From: Nymphaea colorata
Lineage: Eukaryota > Streptophyta > Magnoliopsida > Nymphaeales > Nymphaeaceae
DNA length: 64,000 bases
Assembly (NCBI RefSeq): GCF_008831285.2
Contig: NC_045143.1
Coordinates: 4,039,503-4,103,502, forward strand
Direction of reading: 5' to 3'
Part shown: positions 4,501 through 62,200 of the stretch, one piece after another
Numbering within the stretch: the first letter of the stretch is position 1
Layout of the letters: each line of letters opens with the position of its first letter
Notes under the pieces: model-generated
Seen by the model: the letters and a program-made list of their open reading frames with translations, nothing else
What the model was told of the DNA's origin: nothing
Database searches by the model: none
Position numbers and translations under genes: made by a program

Positions 4501-6100
4501 CTACATGTTTGATTGGTTTAGTAAGAAGAGGTTTTTGTTGTTCAGCCTCATCCTTTTTTATCCTCTTTCTACTTCCAAACCTGTCTTGGACTTCACATGT
4601 TGAGTCGTCTTTATCAATTTTCAATTCTTCTTTTTAATAAATACAAATAATTTCAAGTTTCCATAACCTAATTGTTCACTTCCAGACCTACCCTTTATGA
4701 TTGAGTTCGTCCTTTCTGTGAAAGAAATCATCTTTACCAACTCTCTCTTTTTAGTAGTACAAATATTTCATGTTCCCCATTGTCCTTCACAACTTCAAGT
4801 TGAACTATAGAACAATTTGTGATCGTCGTCGTTATGAACCTTCTTTCTACAGTGTACAGTACAAAGATTTTCAGGCCTCCGTCACCTTTTCAGGTAACTA
4901 TATTCTTTGAAGAAGCTCCCCACTTACTTCATTTGCATAGTTTTCACTGTCCCGATGCATCTTTCATGGAGTAAAGAACCTTACCAAATTTTCAGATCAG
5001 TGGGGCACTGCAACGTAACTTCACGAAAACTCTGCCATGACATTTTTAAAAAGATAACCAAACTTTTTTAGTGCCACAATTCCAGCTTGGTGAATCGCCA
5101 TTTTCGTCAAGTCATCTCATTAATATTTATAGCAAGAGGGGATCTGCCAAAATATTTATTACCAACCTTATAAAAAACTTCAAATTTGGAACTGAATACA
5201 CGTGAAAACAGGTTGAAGATCGCCTCTGCTCTCCTCTGCACAAGTGCACGCCAACGAGGTGGTCCAATTGGCCGACTGTAAAGGAATCAAAAGAGCGCCA
5301 CTGGTGATTTTCTTATTTCTTGAAAAAGCCAAGACAGAGTCTTATTTAAACCATTTAAGGATATTATAACGCTTGCTTTTATCACATGAAAGTGGGATTT
5401 GCTGCTCCGTCTACTAGGAAATATGCATATTATCGATGGTCCAACCTCACAGGACCTACAACAGGGAATACATATCACCGGTATTATTCGCTTTTTTCCC
5501 TTGTGGTTGTGCTAGTGGACATCCTTGTCCACATGAATTATATATACACAACAAATATATAGATATAAGGAGAGCGGGAAGGTAATGGGAAGGTGGTTTG
5601 CTACTTAAAATATTGTCTTCCCTTAAAGTATTGAGCTTTTACGTTTCTATTATCGTGGCATCATAGTTTTTTTTTGTCCTCAATACATATTTCAACACAA
5701 ATCTTGTAGATTCTCTAGAAAACGGTATTTGGTAACAATTAGGACACGCGTACGGCTGGAGCAGAATGTCCCATCACAGGAGGAGGATTTGATGGTTTTG
5801 GGGATGGGGAAGCGCCGTAGAGATAAGGGTGGGAAAGAAGGGTTGTTTTTTCTGGTTTTGTGGTCAAACGTTCAGAATCACAAGGACAAGGATCATCGGT
5901 AAGCACAATGGTGGCAAACCCTAGAACATGATTGAAGTGGGATGGATGGCATCAATGCAAGCGAAAAGAGAGGGAGAGAAAGAGGAGAATGGTTATTATT
6001 TAATGGCGGAAAGACAGGCGCATGACCCTCTCCTTCTGCGTCTCTCTCTCTCACCTGCTTTATTCGGCAACCATCGCAGAGATACCACTCAGCTTTCTTA
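1511..6100. other. gene-free spacer
   Basis: All reading frames here are short (under 90 codons) and show no recognisable domain or splice-linked continuation. The sequence is AT-rich with scattered homopolymer runs. I see no RNA gene or intact repeat. The last few hundred bases (about 5760-6100) become more GC-rich and may belong to the promoter of the MIR156 transcript downstream. Confidence 0.5.
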
Positions 6101-6123: not shown

Positions 6124-6240
6124 CTATTTATGGCCCCCGCCTTCGTTTAGCCCTTGTCAGCTCATAGCTCCCGCTTCGTAGCACGGGCTTTAGATTACAA
6201 GGCCCTCTCTCCCTCCCTCTCTCTCAGTCTCAATCCCTGT
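6124..6240 (+). promoter_or_regulatory. possible core promoter of the MIR156 tandem transcript
   Basis: A TATA-like CTATTTATGG lies at 6124-6133. CT-rich pyrimidine patches follow at 6200-6240, a common feature around plant transcription starts. The first MIR156 hairpin begins about 240 bases downstream, a reasonable distance for a pri-miRNA leader. This is inferred from composition and spacing only, and the start site cannot be placed. Confidence 0.3.
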
Positions 6241-6374
6241 CTTCTCGCTTTCTTTTTCTTCCTGGTGTAACACTTTTAGCTTTTCCTTTCCTTGGGACTC
6301 AAAAAACACAGAGATTTTTGACCCCTTGCAATTAGTGCCCCTCTTTCTCTATGTTTTTGGTTGTTGTGCATGCA

Positions 6375-6470
6375 AAGGAGGCGACAGAAGAGAGTGAGCA
6401 CACACGGTGTTTCTTGCATGGGGGGTTCATGCTTGAAGCTGTGCGTGCTCACTCTCTCTCTGTCATCCCT
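6375..6470 (+). ncRNA. MIR156: MIR156 precursor hairpin, copy 1
   Basis: The 5' arm carries CGACAGAAGAGAGTGAGCAC at 6382-6401, which is miR156 with C instead of U at its first base. The 3' arm (about 6447-6465) reads GCTCACTCTCTCTCTGTCA and pairs with it almost fully. The loop holds TTCTTGCATGG and TTCATGCTTGAAGCT, shared with the other two copies here. miR156 guides AGO1 to mRNAs of SPL transcription factors and prolongs the juvenile phase. A 5'-C form is, as I recall, known in Arabidopsis (miR156g). The mature RNA on the 5' arm fixes the + strand. Copy 2 begins about 135 bases downstream, so one transcript could carry both. Confidence 0.9.
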
Positions 6471-6604
6471 GGTTGCTTTGCACAGGAGAGGTAGTGTGTG
6501 TGCGTGCGTGCTTGTGTGTGTGTGATTATGGTGTTTGCAAGTGCGTATTGTGGTGTGTAATATGGCCTTTCTTCATTCACTGCAGAATGCATGGAGAGAT
6601 GGAG

Positions 6605-6710
6605 GGAGGGGGTGACAGAAGAGAGCGAGCACACATGGGGCTTTTCTTGCATGGATTTGTGGTCATGCTTGAGGCTATGCGTGCTCGCTTCTCTCTCTGT
6701 CATCCCCACA
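6605..6710 (+). ncRNA. MIR156: MIR156 precursor hairpin, copy 2 (variant at base 14)
   Basis: The 5' arm is TGACAGAAGAGAGCGAGCAC at 6613-6632, which is miR156 with C instead of U at position 14. The 3' arm at 6683-6702 is GCTCGCTTCTCTCTCTGTCA. Its GCTCGC matches the changed GCGAGC, so the pairing is kept. The loop again contains CTTTTCTTGCATGGA and TCATGCTTGAGGCT. The flanks GGGGGTGACA and TGTCATCCCC extend the stem. The altered base lies outside the seed and the cleavage site, so SPL targeting may be changed only mildly. Short ORFs across both hairpins on either strand are by-products of the repeats. Confidence 0.9.
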
Positions 6711-7752
6711 CTCTCTCTTTGGGGGAGAGGAAGAGAGAGAGAGAGATAGGTGCATGTGCGTGATCTGGCACGCGGGTTTCTTGGCAGTAGTGCCTCATTA
6801 GTTTTCTTGATTGGAAATCTGCGCCTAGGTTCATGTCTTCCTGTTAAACTATTTTCTGAATTACCCGACTTGGAAGATTGCTGCTTTCCCCAGCACCAGA
6901 GATAGAGAGGAAGACTGATCAACATGTGACACATCCTTTATTTTATCTTACCATCACCTTCTGGAAAAAGTTTAACCTGACCAGAGGGGCGTTCTCCCTG
7001 AGTAAGAGAGAGAGACAGACGAAGGGTAAGAAACCTTGGCCTTAGACAGGTAGACTAGCATGGCCTTGTAAGGAAACGTGTGACATGATCCCAGATCCAG
7101 AAGGGTTCGCCGTGGAGAGAGAGATCTAGAGAGCGAGCGGATGTGGCTTGATCAAGAAAGATTTATCTATTTCGTGGAGGGAGGGAGGGAGAAAAACTAT
7201 TCCTAGATCAAGAAAAATTTCTCCCTCTCGGTCGCCCTCAGAGAAAGAGAGAGACAAAGAGGGAGGGAGGGATCTTGTCTCTTGATCCTTCTATTGCCTT
7301 CTATGAAGGCGGACCAGTCCTTATTTTTTTCGGTGAGAATTCATAACTTGTTATTATTACGCCTTGGATTCCTAAGACCAACCTATTTTTGCCATGGAGT
7401 TGTTGTGTAGAGACACGGGAATGGCTTAAACCTATTTCAGCATCCACCATGCTAGCTTTATCCTTGATCTTCTTTTTCTCTTTCATTTTTCTACCCTAAG
7501 TTGGTATTTTGATGACTGGTTGATTACACTGGAATTCGCTTTCTCGTATGTTGCTGATCATGTTATGAGAAATGATTTTCCGGATTGTTATTTCTTTTTC
7601 TCTCTATCTGTACTTGTGAAGGCACCATAGAAATCAACGCATGTACTTGCTGCAGGACAGTGCTGAATGGAATTTCATGGACTGTGAACAATTATATGGT
7701 GCCCTCGATGGATGCACTCAGGTACTTGCCTGATACTGCTGTACGACTTCCA

Positions 7753-16655: not shown

Positions 16656-17234
16656 AATCTCAGCCTAAGACCCTTGAAGACTCTTTTCTGGACAGTGGGT
16701 TGTTGATATGTTTGAAAATCTGAATAATAAGAATGAGATTTGGATCCAACTTCAATTATAGAACTGTATAGCTAGACAAATTTGAATTTTGATAACCCGG
16801 GCCGGCCGGTTCATTTACCTCCCAGCATTTCAAAGGCCATGAAAGCAAACGGAAGTAGACGTGTCGATGGAAGAAAGAATGTTGTGGGGGAGGAAAGCAT
16901 GGGAATCTGAAGGGGACGGTGGCAACTCATGCTATGGAACGTTGTTGCTTAAATATATACATATAAAATCGAAAAGGCATTTATCAGTGAGGTCACCAGC
17001 TTTATTCTTAAAGGACATGCAGGGATGTTGGACCATGCTGTCACCCCTTCTTTACGTTACGTGCTATATATCTGTAGAGAGCTTCAAGCCTTCAAATCCC
17101 AATTCAATTGGCACAGTACAGAAGCTCCCCACAACACCTGCTACGCCGACGTTGCAGATTGCGAGCGCTGTTGTTGATCGACTATGTGTTCAGAATGCCT
17201 GAGGGAATGTCGCATCATCTGAAGGGAAGATTTT

Positions 17235-17576
17235 AGTTCGGTACTCAAGTTTGGAGGTGACAGAAGAGAGTGAGCACACAGGGCCTTTTCTTGCATGGAG
17301 CTTCATGCTCGAAGCTCTGCGTGCTCACTTCCTCTCTGTCACCTCTCATCTCACTTCACAGGAGTGAGGTAAACTCTGTCGTTATGAACTCCCTCTGCAC
17401 TCCCTTCTTTCACTAAGTTAGTTCGAAATCAAGCTCATTCTGCAGTTTTATTGGACAAATGATAAGTAAATGTGGTCTATGCATGATGCGTCTATCTCTC
17501 TTACTGTCTCTGTCTGCCTCCCTGAGAGGGTGCTACCCTCTGGACGGATTGAATTAAGTTCGGTACTCAAGTTTGG
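17235..17576 (+). repeat. 20-bp direct repeat flanking MIR156 copy 3
   Basis: AGTTCGGTACTCAAGTTTGG occurs at 17235-17254, touching the 5' base of the hairpin, and again at 17557-17576, about 210 bases beyond it. The copies are identical. They may mark the ends of a duplicated block. Confidence 0.85.
17253..17345 (+). ncRNA. MIR156: MIR156 precursor hairpin, copy 3 (canonical)
   Basis: TGACAGAAGAGAGTGAGCAC, the canonical miR156 sequence, lies at 17258-17277 on the 5' arm. The 3' arm at 17323-17342 reads GCTCACTTCCTCTCTGTCAC and pairs closely. The stem continues outward as GGAGGTGACA against TGTCACCTC. The loop shares CCTTTTCTTGCATGGAGC and TTCATGCTCGAAGCT with the copies at 6.4-6.7 kb. The 3' flank CACAGGAGTGAGGTA also resembles CACAGGAGAGGTA after copy 1. 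All three therefore descend from one precursor by local duplication. At 10.5 kb from the pair, it is more likely a separate transcription unit than part of the same one. Confidence 0.93.
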
Positions 17577-18290
17577 CTGAGGGATTGCGTTGAGTCCCTC
17601 CCTTACCCCCCTCATGTCTGCCTCTCTTTCTTCTCATCTCTCTTTAATTTATTAAATTAAACATTGTATCCGATAAAGAGAAAGATAAATAGAAAAATCA
17701 AGACTCGAATTATAAATACCAAAGTAAATTTAGTATCTAGAAGATGAGAAGAAATTAAGAAAAAAGTATATTAAGAAGTATGGGTTGACAAGACTAATGT
17801 TGGTAGTTGTGATTCAATTTGCATACATGTTATATGTAAATATAAATTTTGACTAATTACAACAACTCTAACAATGCTGGCACTTAATATATCTTTTTAT
17901 TTTATCCGCGTGTGTATGCAGGATGGGACTGCCACCCTCTTAATTGGGCCGGCTTTCGGCCAGCCTATTAACCCGATATTAATCGACCCATCTGATCCGA
18001 CTTCACCCGGACCATTAATCTTTTAGCCAGCAGGCTGCTTTTTCCTTTCATTTTTTTGGTGATATTTCAAAAAGGTACCTCTTCTAAAATGGAAACTTTT
18101 ATGCTCTCTTGATCACCTTGTGGTCGATTATGCTTGATAATAGCCTAGTAGCAACAGTACATGATATGCTCCCTTTTCACATACACCATTACTTTATGTC
18201 TGTAAAATAGTCATTATTCTTATTCCAAAAACAATATTTTAAGAAATGAAAGCAACAATATATATATATATAGACAGAGAGAGAAAGACA

Positions 18291-27800: not shown

Positions 27801-30800
27801 ATTGTCTTTTGTACGGCATGGTCATTTTGATTGACATTTTCTTCTATGAAGAACACTGTTGTTTCTGCCCTGCTTGTATGATTTTATCAAACATACAGCA
27901 ATGTATACAAGAGCATGGTATATCATATTAGGTCTTTTGTATCGATATCTAGCTTCTTAGAGGATTTTGGTTTTAACTTACATGAATTAATAGCTTTAAT
28001 AGCTGCCCTATGTAGATGAGGGAAGTCTTTCTGAGTGCTTATTTTCATATCCTTTAATTATCTGCTGATCACCTGATACTGAGTATATTTTTCCTTGAAT
28101 TCTAATCATTATTGTATCATTTATTCAGGACATGTTATTGAAGAAACTCCTGAAGGATGGCTTCTTAACTGATGATGAACGGTAATATTGTGTGCGAGAT
28201 AACTGGTTGTATTTCAGGATGGTACTGAATGGTTGCTAGTTTTAGCATGGTGATTTATCTTGATTAAGAGGATAAAGAGAATATTGAGGAATTTTCTTGT
28301 CAATCAACTATCTTTGCATTTCCGTTTGATATTTCATTCCTTATCATGACAAAGGAAAATATAGGGGTCCAGGACCAAGCGCTCGCTGGGTAAAGATTGC
28401 CTAGTTCAATTTCTTTTCTGGATTGGCCTGGTGAAAAGTGAAAACACTATTGATTTTTTTGTAGCTAGAAGTAATCTGAACTGTGGCACTGTCTATACTT
28501 GCACCATAAATGTTCTCATGTTAGTGAAATATCAAAAAGCTGTATAAGTTGTGTACTCCAGGATATGGTTTTCTGCTATTGAAAAAGAAAACTGATTGCA
28601 GTCAATGCTAGTCTTTGTTGGAAACCAGTTTGTTTTTTATCAGACAATCCTGCTTTTGCAATTTGTTTGTTCCATCATTTTGTTATTTTAGCCTTTGTCA
28701 CAATAAGTTTCTGTCTTTGGCATTTTTTATATGATATACTCTTTCAGATAACAGTAAATATATTTTCTCTTGGGTGCTAGATGTGGCTAGTCTTTGTTGG
28801 AAACCAGTTTGTTTTTTATCAGACAATCCTGCTTTTGCAATTTGTTTGTTCCATCATTTTGTTATTTTAGCCTTTGTCACAATAAGTTTCTGTCTTTGGC
28901 ATTTTTTATATGATATACTCTTTAGATAACAGTAAATATATTTTCTCTTTGGTGCTAGATGTGTCTTAAAATATGATGCTCATTTTGTACTTGGGTACAG
29001 GGATGTTGTTCGATGGGGGAAAAATGTACAGTCTGGAAAAACAAAGGCTATAAAACGTGTTGGTGTATCAACCTACAAGAGGGCGTCATCACTTGAAACC
29101 CTTGTTAGTTCCTTTACCATCTTGTCTGTATTATATATATTGTGTATTCTTATCTTGGAACCATGATTTTCTTTTGTTGAAGGACAGTTAATGTTGTTTA
29201 TGCATCTTTTGTGCAATATTATAGCGGTATGTGAAATTAAATGCATCATTATTTTGTCATCATGAAAAACTTGAGTGTTGCTTTTTATGTTTTGAGGGCC
29301 TTCCCTCGAGACCTAGGTGTGAAGCTGATCTTGCAAATGTGTGTTTTGTTTGTAATATTTTTCGTGGAGAATGTGTGTCTCCAATAACTTTTCTTGGATT
29401 TTTATGCTGGTTGTGGTTAATGTAAGTCATCATCGCGTTACTCACAATTTTTTTGTCAGGGTTTATATGTTACAGGTGATACTTCATAAGGTTGGCACTG
29501 GTAATCTGAATGCTCTGAAATAGTAAGGAAGCATTTATGGCCATCTTATGGCCGGGTATTTAGTTGTAGAACCTGGGTTTGAACTATCTTGTTTCTTCTG
29601 GTCGTATATATGTATGTATGAAGTAGTTCTTGCTTTCCAATCATCAGATCATTATTGTCCTTGTATGCTACTGGGGTTTTGTCATTATATGATATTGTTC
29701 TTGGTAGGGGTAGAAAATAATCATTGCATCTTCTTCTGAAAATCCTCACTGAACAACTTTTATCTTCCAAATTGTATTATTCTTGTGGCTTATTGATGCA
29801 AGATGGAAGCATAATCAAATCATGTAATGGACCTAATTAGATTTTTTAGTACTTGTTAAAATAGATCCAGATCCGAAATCCATCCCTTTCTCTATATAAA
29901 GGGACGTGGGTCATTTTGTAAGTGGTGGTGAAGAAGTTAAAGAAATGAAGTGTTTTCTTAGTTTTCTTCTGTCGTTCTTGTTCTTTGTTTGTTTTGCTTA
30001 GCTTTTAGTTAGTTTAAGCATAGTTTTTAGTTTAGTTGTGAGTGCAGTAAGACTAAGATTCCTTAATCTTAGTTTTTTTCTGCATCAATTGGTATCAGAG
30101 CGAGGATTTTACAACCATGAAAGACCAAACCTTGCTGCTGACAGTAGCAAGGCAGGAATCTGATTTATCTTGTCTAAGACAAGAAGTTGCTGCTTTTACG
30201 ACAAGAGTGGATGCATTGGGAGTCTCTCTCGATAGATTAATGGATGAATTCAGAGAAATGTTCCGTCCAGCTCTGCAAAAGAGGCAAATCGTTCATAGAC
30301 TTGCTATTACATATGTTAGTTGGGCCATGGGCGTTTCTGAAGCTGGAACTAGAACACGCGAGCAGTCATGGGATCCCTTAGAGAGAGACGTTGGGGCTTT
30401 GGGCGGAATCGATAATAAAAAATGTGCAACAACGGGGGGGATTTCTGCTGGAGCTCCATCGCTGGCAGGCATACCAAATCCGGCGTCTGGGCTCCCCACC
30501 GAAGCTCCCCTGATTTCAACCAGAGGAGATGGAAAATCTGTTGTGTCCTCTTCCCATCGTCAGGCAGAAGCCCCGATCTTCCTGGGCCTGCCCATCAGTG
30601 AGCAGATGAAAACTCCATGTCCGGCAAAGGGAGCATCGATGGCATCGGGTCCTTCCTGTGCACTGGAAGAAGTGCGGCAGACATCTCCAGCTGGTGGAGG
30701 TGCAAAGGACGTCGCCAGCAATCCTCCTCAACCAGTGGAGCAAAGTCTAGTGGCGCCATCGTCCGTCTGGCCGCCGCCCATCTCTCTTCTTTCCGCCGAC

Positions 30801-32257
30801 GTCTGGGGTAGGGGGAGTCACCCGCCACCACCGTTCACCCACCATCGCTCAATCGAACAGACGTCCCCTCCAGCAGAAAACCTTGCCATCGGCGTGGGTA
30901 TTCGGCCGATGGCGTGGCAGATGTCGGTGGTTTCTTCTCCCGGTGGGCATGGTGTGGGAACTGCAACCAGCAACGGCGACATCTTCACGTTTCAGCCTCC
31001 TGCCTTTGTGAAGGTCCTGGTTCCCCCGCCTCTCGAATGGGCACCGCCCATGGAATCGCAGCCTGCTGGCGGACTGGAGGTGACAGGTAGCCGTCGTCCG
31101 CCTCTTCTCCCATTCAGACAAGATGGGGCGGTGGCGGTGGGCACCGCTCTTCAGCCCTCTGGTTTGCCCCTTCCGCCCCTGTTTGAGGCGGAAAGGGGTA
31201 ACCATGAGCAGCGCCTCTAGCTGCCGCTCGAGGCGCTCGTGGGCTTGGACCGGTTCCTTTTGGGACCGGTTCAAACCAAACCAGGTTTTGGACCCGGTTC
31301 AGGTCCATATCGCCCAATTCACGGGTACAAGAGTCCAGATTTGGATCCAAACTCGTTTTTTCCATCACTTGAGACTGAATTTGAATCAAGAATGCCTTTA
31401 GATCATATCCAAGCCTGTGTTTCTTCTCCAAGGCCACCACCTTAGTCGCCACCTTGATCATCTTCACGAGAAGTGAACAGATCACCAACTAGGGGAATGG
31501 TTGGTCCTTTTGTTCAACAGATCCAATTTTGGCAAGATGAAAGATTTAAACTCGTCGAGGGCGACTCTTCTCCAACTAGGGGAGTCTGATGCAAGTTGGA
31601 AGCATAATCAAATCATGTAATGGATCTAATTAGATTTTTTAGTACTTGTTAAAATAGACCCAGATCCGAAATCCATCCCTTTTTCTATATAAAGGGACGT
31701 GGGTCATTTTGTAAGTGGTGGTGAAGAAGTTAAAGAAATGAAGTGTTTTCTTAGTTTTCTTCTGCCGTTCTTGTTCTTTGTTTGTTTTGCTTAGCTTTTA
31801 GTTAGTTTAAGCATAGTTTTTAGTTTAGTTGATTCCTTAATCTTAGTTTTTTTCTGCATCAATTGGCATCAATTACTCCTCCTTTGATTCACGTTTCTCA
31901 TCTCCCTGTTCTCCATTTTTCACTGTGATGCTTTTACAGATTGAAGTTAATACTCTATTTATGAAAAATAGAACATTGTGATTTCTCCACTGAAGGCATT
32001 TGCACTCTCTATAATTCATAGTCACAGACTTCCTTATATTGGATAGTTTGTCATTCTAATCTGCTTCGTTCGTCAGAAGCTGCAGTCCACATTATTTCCT
32101 GTTTCAATTGATGCATTTCCTTTAGCACTGAAATTACAATTATTTCATTTTGTAGATTGGATACCTGTATCTGACAAATGCAAAGCGCTTGGAGGAAATC
32201 ATGTCGAACATGGGATTTTCTGCAGGTGCTTCTAGTAATATGATTGCACAGAAATGA
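24892..32257 (+). CDS. mini-ribonuclease III-like protein, probably plastid
   Basis: Six exons: 24892-25237, 26169-26299 (or from 26172), 27129-27218, 28129-28181, 29001-29103 and 32156-32257. They give 274 residues with consistent phases. The first 115 residues are rich in Ser, Thr, Pro and Ala and look like a chloroplast transit region. The catalytic domain begins near residue 141 with RTIYNAESLAYLGDCIYE, holding the RNase III aspartate (D155). It continues through LYARRHFLFPP, LLKDGFLTDDERDVVRWG and RNVQ-type KNVQSGKTK, and ends with SSLETLIGYLYL, holding the second acidic residue (E239). There is no double-stranded-RNA-binding domain, as expected for mini-III. Known plant members (Arabidopsis RNC3/RNC4) process chloroplast rRNA and intron RNA. 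Intron 5 is 3.05 kb long because it contains an LTR element in the sense direction. Confidence 0.88.
25256..25425. repeat. degenerate tandem repeat in intron 1
   Basis: Four units of about 38-52 bases share the core TATCTCTCTATTAAG with variants GTTGTCTCTCTATTAAG and CTTACCTCTCTATTAAG, often followed by NCTGTCTGTG. A fifth, weaker unit (GAGTTATCTCTTCATTAA) lies near 25535. It is a local expansion inside intron 1 of the mini-RNase III gene. Confidence 0.8.
28607..28963. repeat. 179-bp tandem duplication in intron 4
   Basis: The block 28607-28785 (starting GCTAGTCTTTGTTGGAAACC) is repeated at 28786-28963. The copies differ by a one-base deletion (CTTTCAGATAAC against CTTTAGATAAC) and one substitution near the end, so the duplication is recent. 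It lies just before exon 5 of the mini-RNase III gene and does not touch a splice site. Confidence 0.95.
29794..30087 (+). repeat. 5' LTR, 294 bp
   Basis: It starts TGATGCAAGATGG and ends TCTGCATCA. A promoter-like CTATATAAAGGGACG lies at about 29892-29906. Compared with the 3' LTR it has 19 extra bases (TGAGTGCAGTAAGACTAAG) and about five substitutions, which suggests a recent insertion. Confidence 0.9.
30090..30101 (+). other. primer-binding site (tRNA-iMet)
   Basis: TGGTATCAGAGC lies two bases after the 5' LTR and is complementary to the 3' end of plant initiator methionine tRNA, the standard primer of plant LTR elements. Confidence 0.9.
30117..31220 (+). CDS. ORF of the non-autonomous LTR element (gag-like N-terminus)
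   Basis: This intact frame of 367 codons starts 15 bases after the primer-binding site. The first 60 residues (ARQESDLSCLRQEV, TRVDALGVSLDRLMDEFREM) look like the helical, coiled-coil start of plant gypsy-type gag proteins. The rest is rich in Pro, Gly, Ser and Ala with no zinc knuckle and no protease or polymerase motif. It is much more GC-rich than the host intron. Just beyond the stop another frame continues about 70 codons (SFFPSLETEFESRMP), suggesting that a frameshift cut a longer protein. Its role is inferred from position only. Confidence 0.6.
   Translation: MKDQTLLLTVARQESDLSCLRQEVAAFTTRVDALGVSLDRLMDEFREMFRPALQKRQIVHRLAITYVSWAMGVSEAGTRTREQSWDPLERDVGALGGIDNKKCATTGGISAGAPSLAGIPNPASGLPTEAPLISTRGDGKSVVSSSHRQAEAPIFLGLPISEQMKTPCPAKGASMASGPSCALEEVRQTSPAGGGAKDVASNPPQPVEQSLVAPSSVWPPPISLLSADVWGRGSHPPPPFTHHRSIEQTSPPAENLAIGVGIRPMAWQMSVVSSPGGHGVGTATSNGDIFTFQPPAFVKVLVPPPLEWAPPMESQPAGGLEVTGSRRPPLLPFRQDGAVAVGTALQPSGLPLPPLFEAERGNHEQRL
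31587..31861 (+). repeat. 3' LTR, 275 bp
   Basis: It starts TGATGCAAGTTGG after a purine-rich tract and ends TGCATCA. It matches the 5' LTR except for a 19-base deletion near its 3' end and a handful of substitutions. The ten bases after it (ATTGGCATCA) resemble the bases after the 5' LTR (ATTGGTATCA). Confidence 0.9.
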
Positions 32258-34071: not shown

Positions 34072-35460
34072 TCAATCGGCCATTGCATCCGGCTGAATCA
34101 CTTTTGCCAATTCCTTCGGCCTTCTTTGTCTAGTTCTTCTAACAAGGTCCTCATTAGAGAGAACCACGTGCACAATGTCACCGTTTTCTTTATGATATTT
34201 CAGGATATCTTCTAGGACCACCAACTCACCCTCAAACAACCACCCACCTGCAGATTGCCATCCCCACAGTTCAAGATCGTGCAGATTTTGCATTGGCAAT
34301 GTTAATGAACAGCCTTCATCTGCTATCCTTCTTCTTGACCTCATATTATAGCTCAGTAGCAAGCCAAATTTTATAACGGTCTTCGGTACCACTTGGCCAT
34401 TTAGTGCTGCCAGCAGGAAAGGGTTATCCTCGTGTAGGACTTTATTTTTATACCACCAAATGCGCCAGCAAGCTATTAGAAAGTCTATCTTCCAATACTT
34501 TAGTTTCCATTTGCCCTGAATCTTGGCTTTCATCCATTTCTTGAGTTCCGAGAGAGTGTCTCCGTATGGAATTTGACGGACCCCATATTTTTTAGTGATC
34601 CATCTCCAAACATCACGCACGTTGCTGCACCTGATGAGGACATGATTGTTACTCTCCTCATCCTTATCATAGAGAACACATCTATTGGCTGTTTGGATGT
34701 TTGATGATACAAACTCGTCCGGCATAAGATAAATATCTGGTTTTCCATCCTGCCATTCTTTTCTCTGATTTTAAGAACAACAGCATGCAAAGATCATGAG
34801 ATGTTGGCGCTTCAAATAGAGGAAAACCAAGATGGTTAGAAGGCAGAAAACCCAAAAGGCCAAGCAATCAGATTACTGAGATCCACAGCTAAGCATCCGA
34901 GTGCTCTATCGATGATAAGTTCAGACTTCTCCTTCTTGACTTTTATGTCTGCTAAACTTTCTACGTCCTCAAAAACATTTTTAATGTTGAGAATGAGCTG
35001 TTAGCAAGATTACAGGGATTCCCTCCATCCTCTTGGAAGTCTTGGCAATCATGAGAACGTCATCCGCGGACATGACAGCCTGCAACTCTTGCTTAACTCT
35101 ACGAATTTTGGGGATCTGATCTTTTTCGTTGCTGATGTTTTGCTTGAAAGGACCTGTCAAAAGCTTCCGTGATCGTTATAAACAAGTGTGGGGACATTGG
35201 GTCCCCTTGCTGAAGACCTCGTTTCCTTATAAATCTCTGTCCTAATTTGCTTGAAAGGACCTGTCAAAAACTTCCATGATCGTTGTAGATAAGTGTGGGG
35301 GCATTAGGTCCGCTTGCTGAAGACCTCGTTTCCATGTAAATGTCTGTCCTAATCGGCCATTAGTCAGATAATTCTTAGTTATCACCTCACGTTTCTTGTC
35401 ATCAAGAAGTGGAACCTGTTTCGCCTTGGAAAAAGACGAAACCTTGATGACAAAATCATC
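34072..35460 (-). mobile_element. LINE (non-LTR retrotransposon) relic
   Basis: Reading the minus strand from 35460, fragments of a LINE reverse transcriptase appear in several frames: RGLQQGDPMSPHLFI (near 35.2 kb), SADDVLMI with the catalytic Asp pair, HLGFPLFEAPTSHD, and WKTRYLSYAGRVCIIKHP (34.7 kb). An open 217-codon frame (34072-34725) follows, with the zinc-binding domain typical after LINE reverse transcriptase (NRCVLYDKDEESNNHVLIRC, RDVWRWI). Frameshifts and a duplicated block make it inactive. The 5' part (endonuclease, ORF1) is absent, a common result of incomplete reverse transcription. Confidence 0.85.
35139..35352. repeat. 107-bp tandem duplication inside the LINE relic
   Basis: Block 35139-35245 (from TTTGCTTGAAAGGACC to CTGTCCTAA) repeats at 35246-35352 with roughly ten differences. 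On the minus strand it holds the reverse transcriptase core. One copy keeps QGDPMSPHLF, while in the other it has decayed to QADLMPPHLS. Confidence 0.9.
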
Positions 35461-40294: not shown

Positions 40295-41042
40295 GATTTT
40301 ACTTAAAATAAAGCATATACATGCTACTCGATCGGAGCAATGTGGGTTTCTTTTTAATATGTAGGAGAATGATAATTGAGCACCATAGGAAACAAATCAA
40401 TTTATCTTAATTCTTAAGGAAGGAAACTCAGAAAAGAACGTTAGCAAATTCTCAAAAACATGTGGGCTTGTGGTGTTTGAGATTGACTCGTACTTGACAC
40501 ACTTGCTAAGTTTTTATGTTGGATGCAGACTGCTTATCATGACCATACGCCCAAAAAAAAAGTTTGTGCTTCTAATTTATGTCATTTTGATCTTCGTTAT
40601 ATGTCTTTGGGCTTCACACAAACCACAAAATTAACGTAAAATTGGTCATTCATATTTTCTGGGAATTTGACCTAACTGGGAAAAAAACCTGAGAATTTCA
40701 TGTGACCACGAGCCATTTTTAAAAAGGTTTTACCAAATAAAACTCTTTTTCTTAAATTTAGGGATACCCAGAACCCCCACCAACTATTGTCATCGTCCAA
40801 TTTGGCCTTAGGATCAAAACTTTTCAAGTTAACGGTGGATGTATGATACATTTCGTTTGCAAGGGGGGTGGCGCAACAATGGAAGCGCATGTTGATAGAT
40901 GACCAGCGCCTGTTTTGAATCATCGGGATATCAATTCTATGTGTTGCAAAAGAGAAGGTCATTGATACATAAGTTGAAGTGTGGTGGAACAGCACCTAAA
41001 AATACCTAACACATACTCTGCAACATAAGGAGATAAGGGATT

Positions 41043-41267
41043 GAGTGGAGATTTAGGCCATGTACTTGAGCAGTAGAATGATATACTCCTCTTACCCATA
41101 AATCAATGGATCCAACACCTTCAAGTCCAATGATAAGCCAGTCTTCTACGAAAATGAGTGGAGATTTCGGCTATGTACTTGAGCAGTAGAATGATATACT
41201 TCTCTTACCCATACATTAATGGATCCAACACCTTCAAGTCCAACGATAAGCCAGTCTTCTACGAAAA
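41043..41267. repeat. 113-bp tandem duplication
   Basis: Block 41043-41155 (starting GAGTGGAGATTTAGGCCATG) repeats at 41156-41267 with about seven differences. Both copies include CTCTTACCCATA and ATGGATCCAACACC. Confidence 0.95.
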
Positions 41268-59297: not shown

Positions 59298-62200
59298 TTA
59301 CTCTGTCCGTTGCAATAAGAAGACAAACCCTGAATTCTCACGGATCAGAGGTGGTGGGTCAACATCTGATATATCAATCTGCTGCATTGACTTGGAGATT
59401 TCATCAACTGAAAATGGTATGCTGCATGAATATTATAACATAAGAAAACATCATCCAGATATAGTTTTAGAGACATTTAAATAGGTATTTACCTGGAATC
59501 ATCGTCCAGTAGAAAGGAGCTGCTGACAGGACTATTGGAATCCTCAGTCATCAGTATTCGCATACTAGAAATAACCTAAAACATCAAGGTTCCTTTTATC
59601 AACAATCCGGTGAATGCAAATCAGGACATAAATGAGCTCAGCGACTAAACTTAGAAAGTGCAGCATGACAGGTAAGAGAATGCTTTGATAACTAGTTACT
59701 TCCTAATCAGAAGAATGACCTTACTCTAGGTGCACAAGGACCAGCTAAAATAAAAATTTAACATTTTTATGACCTAGAACAAGATTGGAGCTAAAATAAA
59801 TCAGGATATAAATGACCTCGAGAGTGACAAAATTTAGAAAGTGCAGGATTACATGTAAGGGAATGCTTTAATTACTAGTTACTCGGTCATCCAAAGAATG
59901 ACCTCACTCTAGGTGCAGAAGGACCAAACAAATAAAAATTTAACATTTTTATGAGCTGCAACAAGGTTAGAGATGCTCCAGTAATTGACAGTACAAGTTG
60001 CAAAATAAAGATGATTAAAAAAAAAAGTCAGCATGCAGAACTTGTCTTGCCACCATATTCAACTTTGCAAATCTTCGATAGACAAGAGCAAGCTCTCAGT
60101 AAATCATGGCCTAGAGATGGTCGGAAAGTTATATACATTACTTGTAAAACTTACTTCTGAAGATACACTATGCGTGCCATACTTGTCATCCCAGTACATT
60201 GTACTAATCCTATATAACTGCTGAATGCTCAGTACCTGGCATCCACATGAGAAACCAAAAAAATGATACAGAGGTGAAAAAAGGAGAAAGAAAAAAACAA
60301 GACTCAAGAAAAAGGACACAGCAAAACTACGTACTGGACAAAGATCATTAGTGATTTCTCTCAATGTCTTCTTTGGCTTTTGATGTATAACCTAAAAAAT
60401 TGTTCATAAAAGTTAGTAGGAGACAGACCAGAACAAAGACAGTCTTGGCAACACAACTACAAGAAGAAACTCACAAGGAATCCAACTGCTTGTCTTATGT
60501 GTTTGAGTTCTTCCCAAGCAGTGCCTGCGTACTGCACATGAGTCACTCTTAGAGGTGAATCATAGAAAATGAAAAACAATAAGAAAAATCAAGGAAACAA
60601 GGCCAACCTCTTCCGTAGCATCATGACACCAGTGCTCTAATTCAGAAAGTCCTGCCTTCACATATTCCCCATTGCTAAATGAGCAACATTCACGCCGCAA
60701 AAGAAGGCTATTTCAATGAAATAAAGAATTAAATACAGCAGAACCAAAAGTATTCATGAAAAAATTTGTATTTGTCTTAGTCATACCTATTAAAGAGCTG
60801 AACATTGATAAATGAAAATGTTTGGGTAAAAATCTTCCGGACTAGGAATGGTGGTACCTGTAAGACCCAGGGTGAGATTGATGAAAAGTTGGCAATGTCA
60901 CTATGAGAAATAGTTGATCTTCAGATAGCATGCAAACAATTCTTAAAAAAAAAATGACCTACAGATATAATTTTCTGCATCACACGAAAAGTAACGAACT
61001 ACTCACATAATTAGCCCTCAGTACTTTAAAAAAGTTGTTCAGGCTTTTCACAATGCTTTGCCAGTGAGCAATCAAAGCCTGTTGAGCAACAGCATTAGCT
61101 TGAAAGCGTGAACCTTTCACCAGGCTTGCTCTGGATGTCCTTGGTGCCTGTAATCAAAACATGTAAGCACAGACAGGGAGATCATCCTGCAAAATAGAGA
61201 TACAAAGAAAAGTAACAGATAATGCCAAACCACAAAGCCCTAAAGGCAAAAAAATACCTGTATACACAGACCAAGCAAAGGAGATATTTCTTTCTTTAGA
61301 TTGTCGCGAATCATGCCATAGATTTTCTCCAGATAAGCTGTAAGCTGTTGTTTGAAGAGCAAAGCTGGATACTTGGCATCAACTTGGCGCAATTCATTCA
61401 GGCCACTGATCATTCGACTGCTCAGATATGATAGTGCACCACTCTGGGGAGAGGCACGGATTCCCTGAAACATTTTCATATAATGCAATATTGTAAACAT
61501 GACTTCCATAGTATAGATTATATTCAGTTAAACACATTTACATCTTACCTGAGACATTCTACCAAACAACGATGCTGATGATCTCCTTCTCTGTGGAGTC
61601 ATGTTAGCTGTTCCACTTGCCTTGAGTGTGTGTTGAAGGAGCAACAATAAAGTGGATGAATTGGATAACCAATACGCTAACGTGTCATTGTTGTCCTGTG
61701 CCTTAAGTTGGCAATAGTGTGTGTCAACAAATGAAATAGTAAAATTACAAATAATACTATATGCAACATTACATTGTAATATTGAAATACCTCAATGGCT
61801 GCACCTATCGTCTGAATGATGCGATCAAAAACACTAGTCCTCTCCACCTCAAAGGACCTCCAGTGCAGAAGGCATTTGTATATAACACAAGCAGCAATTG
61901 GTCTGCCACTTGTGAAACCCAAGTCCTGTGAGATGCATTTGATCAACAAATCCTGGTTTTCCTGCAAAATGTCACAGATAATCGAGATAGATGTAAGTGG
62001 TGGGAGAAAAAAAGACAGTACTAGTAAATTATAACTAGTATACTAAGTAGATCCTGCAGAAATAATGACAACTAGTTCACTAACTTGATGCCTTGTTAGA
62101 ATGCTTTTGATATCATTTAGCAAAGGAGCTAACCTGCTGTTTCTCATTGAGAGACTTTTGGGGCTTCTCTTCAACTTCTAGATCCTTTGTGCTAGGCACC

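Follow-up and report, generated by a model that had tools for sequence, protein, structure and literature searches.

Do the two miR156-like foldbacks near 6.4 kb of the window (the whole 64-kb stretch of DNA analysed here) form a genuine tandem MIR156 pair, and are they parts of one gene? miR156 controls how long the juvenile phase lasts, and the Corngrass1 phenotype is due to overexpression of a paired miR156 precursor. The whole window was searched on both strands with Rfam cmscan at gathering thresholds, the curated cut-off for MIR156 (RF00073) being 62 bits. As a result, three MIR156 matches were found, all on the + strand, and they are the only family matches at cut-off in the 64 kb:

6381..6466, + strand, MIR156 hairpin 1 (RF00073, 85.2 bits, E 5.2e-17)
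6612..6703, + strand, MIR156 hairpin 2 (RF00073, 80.6 bits, E 9.1e-16)
17257..17342, + strand, MIR156 hairpin 3 (RF00073, 75.3 bits, E 2.4e-14)

Hairpins 1 and 2 are a genuine tandem MIR156 pair. The sequence-only reading had proposed two complete foldbacks in the same orientation, which the two + strand scores confirm, and its spacing of about 135 bp is close to the 145 nt measured here between the Rfam ends. Hairpin 3, absent from that reading, follows on the same strand some 10.5 kb beyond the pair. Each hairpin is more stable than all 200 of its dinucleotide shuffles, with a minimum free energy of -58 kcal/mol for hairpin 1 (6371-6475, z -6.8), whose predicted stem runs a few pairs beyond the Rfam ends, and of -61.6 kcal/mol for hairpin 2 (6602-6712, z -7.1), and with a z of -7.6 for hairpin 3. 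The reverse complements of hairpins 1, 2 and 3 fold about equally well (z -8.5, -8.5 and -8.2), so the strand call rests on the Rfam scores, which on the minus strand stay below cut-off (47.8, 39.2 and 45.9 bits); these antisense matches arise because the stems are near-palindromic. When the canonical miR156 20-mer was scanned with up to three mismatches, it matched at only three places in the window, all within the hairpins, against a chance expectation of 0.00 (100 shuffles). A chance hairpin in GA/CT-rich DNA is ruled out by the zero expected 20-mer matches, the Rfam scores and the compensated pairs described below, and an assignment to MIR535 was rejected, the same places scoring at most 37.4 bits against a cut-off of 64. 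No partner hairpin was found after hairpin 3: of the six Rfam matches at 17500-17900 with E up to 10, none is MIR156 and none reaches its own cut-off.

The 20-mer occupies the 5' arm of every hairpin, opposite a star arm that pairs with it, and differs from the canonical sequence by zero or one mismatch:

6382..6401, + strand, predicted mature miR156 of hairpin 1 (one mismatch to the canonical 20-mer, 5' C for U)
6447..6467, + strand, predicted miR156 star of hairpin 1 (by the 2-nt 3' overhang rule)
6613..6632, + strand, predicted mature miR156 of hairpin 2 (C for U at position 14)
6683..6704, + strand, predicted miR156 star of hairpin 2 (22 nt by the overhang rule)
17258-17277, + strand, predicted mature miR156 of hairpin 3 (canonical)
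17323-17343, + strand, predicted star of hairpin 3 (by duplex geometry)

Each predicted duplex leaves zero or one of the 20 miRNA bases unpaired, together with four star bases including the overhang; in hairpin 3, the unpaired base is at miRNA position 8. Against a consensus SPL target site, the mature forms of all three hairpins pair with a sole internal mismatch at position 14, and that of hairpin 1 has an extra mismatch at position 1. Since position 14 is already mismatched in canonical miR156, the C14 change in hairpin 2 costs no pairing with the SPL site, and the 5' C of hairpin 1 costs one end pair. The 5'-C and C14 mature strings both occur, as strings, in published text.

To compare the three copies, the window's own letters were aligned with gaps placed by hand and the stem pairs counted on that alignment, because MAFFT misaligned the loop of hairpin 1. 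In this alignment, which was set by eye and is biased towards the fold, two stem pairs are altered on both sides (U-A/C-G/U-A and, higher in the stem, C-G/U-A/G-C in hairpins 1/2/3), suggesting that the fold has been maintained across old duplicates. The star arm of hairpin 2 carries a G compensating the C at miRNA position 14. Uncompensated stem changes also exist: hairpin 1, for example, lacks the pair at miRNA position 1, and hairpin 2 lacks column pair 28-63. Identity among the copies peaks in the miR arm (18/20, 19/20 and 19/20 for hairpins 1-2, 1-3 and 2-3, respectively); it is 18/21, 18/21 and 19/21 letter columns in the star arm and 30/44, 30/43 and 34/44 letter columns in the middle region. 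Over 140-200 nt of upstream flank, the copies are no more alike than shuffled sequences, with 258/500, 479/500 and 163/500 shuffles reaching the scores of the same three comparisons. Because the hairpin arms are conserved and the upstream flanks are not similar, the duplication looks old in this lineage, and the copies look like old duplicates kept by selection on the hairpin rather than products of a recent tandem duplication. The same picture would result if little beyond the hairpin itself had been copied.

Within the 60 nt downstream, hairpins 2 and 3 show no similarity (187/500 shuffles reach the score), and hairpins 1 and 3 are similar (0/500 shuffles). Hairpins 1 and 2 also match there (0/500 shuffles), but this match links unequal offsets, 20 after hairpin 1 and 38 after hairpin 2, in GA/GT-rich DNA and was not counted as support. 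The similarity of hairpins 1 and 3 includes a box at equal offset, CACAGGA(GT)GAGGTA, which contains the donor form GAG/GTA (slash, splice point); 4/2000 mononucleotide and 0/500 dinucleotide shuffles reach the score of the box alignment. The box and the predicted introns are as follows:

6481..6493, + strand, box CACAGGAGAGGTA after hairpin 1, matched at equal offset after hairpin 3
6491..6585, + strand, predicted 95-nt intron between hairpins 1 and 2 (donor GAG/GTAGTG, acceptor TTCATTCACTGCAG/AA)
17369..17445, + strand, predicted 77-nt intron after hairpin 3 (donor GAG/GTAAAC, acceptor ATTCTGCAG)

The acceptors of both predicted introns end in CTGCAG. The predicted donor 24 nt past hairpin 1 ranks 217th and that after hairpin 3 ranks 48th among the 3312 GT sites of the + strand, in a rough home-made matrix of plant splice-site weights. 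The donor after hairpin 1 is thus of moderate strength, slightly outscored by another GT of that gap (6553). Read by eye, the letters some 26 nt past hairpin 2 are GAGAG/GAAG, without GT. The 95-nt intron between the hairpins is a reasonable prediction from the sequence. According to a review, proper biogenesis of the exonic miR163 of Arabidopsis needs an active 5' splice site (PMC9864873). A MIR156 hairpin with a donor 24-26 nt downstream and a short intron may even represent an ancestral, selected unit older than the copies in this window, in which case the pair would have arisen when exon 2 gained another hairpin, the third locus retaining the single-hairpin unit. This proposal is tentative and, on balance, unlikely.

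The candidate core promoter of the pair is:

6125..6130, + strand, TATA-like TATTTA (weak alone)

Another TATTTA lies at 5997, and candidate core promoters near hairpin 3 are TATATA at 16954 and 17065 and TATAAA at 16962. None of the scanned TATA-like hexamers occurs in the 145-nt gap, which favours one transcript for the pair; the two hairpins probably form such a transcript. It is likely that the locus is a dicistronic MIR156 gene, with both hairpins derived from one primary transcript. Transcription by RNA polymerase II would begin before hairpin 1, perhaps around 6.16 kb, and both foldbacks of the resulting transcript would be cut by DCL1, a step that the short intron between the hairpins may help. 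Both products would then enter ARGONAUTE and repress SPL (SBP-box) mRNAs, leading to longer juvenile growth. The DCL1 and ARGONAUTE steps belong to the miRNA pathway; the single transcript, its splicing, its processing and the repression of SPL are what we infer for this locus. The third MIR156, about 10.5 kb downstream, would probably be transcribed separately.

Other arrangements are conceivable. Tandem duplicates may carry their own promoters, and the pair could be two MIR156 genes lying close by chance; this is very unlikely, given that the gap is so short and lacks the scanned hexamers, that a donor/acceptor pair is predicted inside it and that the two hairpins of the maize pair share one transcript (PMC2773440). 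A distinctly unlikely arrangement would place all three hairpins (6.4-17.3 kb) in one long, multiply spliced pri-miRNA. Pfam searches of both strands at 7-17 kb detected no domain, which leaves room for one very long transcript without a Pfam-recognised coding domain between the hairpins; the hairpins share a strand, and barley MIR156g is a 9.8-kb gene (9,759 bp with five introns; PMC3558349). Against such a transcript, a TATATA lies 192 nt upstream of hairpin 3. Sites of this kind are nevertheless frequent in A+T-rich DNA, with two further TATA-like hexamers near 16.96 kb. Since this long transcript is compatible with a dicistronic pair, the likelihoods given to the explanations do not sum to one.

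A third alternative is that at least one of the hairpins is a pseudogene, that is, a decayed or silent copy. The C in place of the usual U at the start of hairpin 1, with its lost pair, and the unpaired position 8 in hairpin 3 could be read as decay. Two stem changes are nevertheless compensated on both sides, the miR arm is more conserved than the loop side, all three hairpins score above the Rfam cut-off, and both variant mature strings are in print, which makes a pseudogene highly improbable. The dicistronic gene remains the preferred explanation for the pair.

An exact 20-base direct repeat, AGTTCGGTACTCAAGTTTGG, lies just upstream of hairpin 3 at 17235-17254 and again 322 bases on at 17557-17576, within a looser 38-column match whose score is reached by 0/500 shuffles. 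Each copy contains GTAC, the SBP binding core, and the Rfam search gave no MIR156 match after the second copy. Farther downstream on the + strand, at 26-29 kb, the joined pieces of three exons match Pfam Ribonuclease_3 (2.9e-09) in a Mini-III RNase-like gene. The minus strand carries a PDDEXK_6/DUF506 gene at 36-38.5 kb (Pfam 8.4e-49; second frame 6e-11) and a RINGv match near 48.3 kb (1.5e-07). A Copia-type retrotransposon remnant occupies 3-971 (RVT_2, 7.8e-18), the next open frame having an RVT_3 match below cut-off, and a zf-RVT match below the Pfam cut-off at 34075-34770 on the minus strand is perhaps a LINE remnant. At 29794-31871, direct repeats of about 300 bases (92% identical, with TG...CA ends) flank a 387-codon open frame with no Pfam match, suggesting a possible short non-autonomous LTR retrotransposon. 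A sequence resembling the initiator-tRNA primer site, TGGTATCAGAGC, overlaps the end of the first repeat, an atypical position, and no clear target-site duplication was found around the element. Two-copy tandem duplications of 107-183 bases with 82-98% matches are present at 28607-28963, 35139-35353, 41042-41267 and 59618-59972. Pfam searches gave no match in three frames of the + strand at 18.5-28.5 kb, nothing reaching cut-off in ten single open frames, and only sub-cut-off matches on the + strand at 28.5-38.5 kb and on the minus strand at 50-60 kb. A solved-structure search with one short exon and a tRNA scan gave no matches, nor did a scan for sigma-70-type promoters, a type not meaningful in a plant. 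miR156-like DNA was found neither in viral contigs nor in bacterial/archaeal genome contigs, both unlikely places.

The layout of two same-orientation MIR156 hairpins within a few hundred nt is that of Corngrass1. In maize miR156b/c, the hairpins lie on the same strand 198 nt apart, compared with 145 nt here, and RACE showed a single transcript that loses a 94-nt intron by splicing, the position of that intron not being stated (PMC2773440); the predicted intron here is 95 nt. For the window pair, the single transcript and its splicing are predictions, and the third MIR156 about 10.5 kb away is a further difference from maize. In rice, miR156b/c and miR156h/j are described as tandem pairs inside the same gene (PMC4409300), and a second study recognises b/c alone as a tandem precursor out of 12 rice loci (PMC2607281). 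The partner of rice b/c in a duplicated block is the single gene miR156l, whereas this window has its single copy some 10.5 kb from the pair, on the same strand. Tandem MIR156 pairs are also reported in sugarcane, sorghum and other Oryza species, and two tandem miR156 homologues, 590 nt apart as against 145 nt here, were described in 2008 in EST CJ743424 from the dicot Ipomoea nil (PMC2358906).

The likeness to rice miR156b/c and maize Corngrass1 drawn in the sequence-only reading is supported by the anatomy and by published pairs of equal layout (PMC2773440, PMC4409300, PMC2358906). The surprise that it implied, should the plant not be a grass, is weakened by the Ipomoea nil pair, with which a non-grass tandem pair is no longer new. 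As for how rare such pairs are, the four families for which a soybean survey gives tandem loci do not include miR156 (PMC3481472), and the example clusters in an Aristolochia contorta excerpt are MIR171, MIR166 and MIR396, without MIR156 (PMC11172604); against rarity, reported plant clusters include the miR156 family (PMC2812943). A literature search made without the species name found no publication linked to this locus.

In summary, the tandem MIR156 arrangement is known inside and outside the grasses, and the pair in this window is a real, ordinary further example. Together with the nearby third copy and the donor-like site matched in two copies, it adds a data point on the growth of the MIR156 family and on whether MIR156 genes retain a splice donor close by, without overturning anything. 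If the proposed ancestral unit proved widespread among the MIR156 loci of flowering plants, its donor would count as a biogenesis element conserved in the family.
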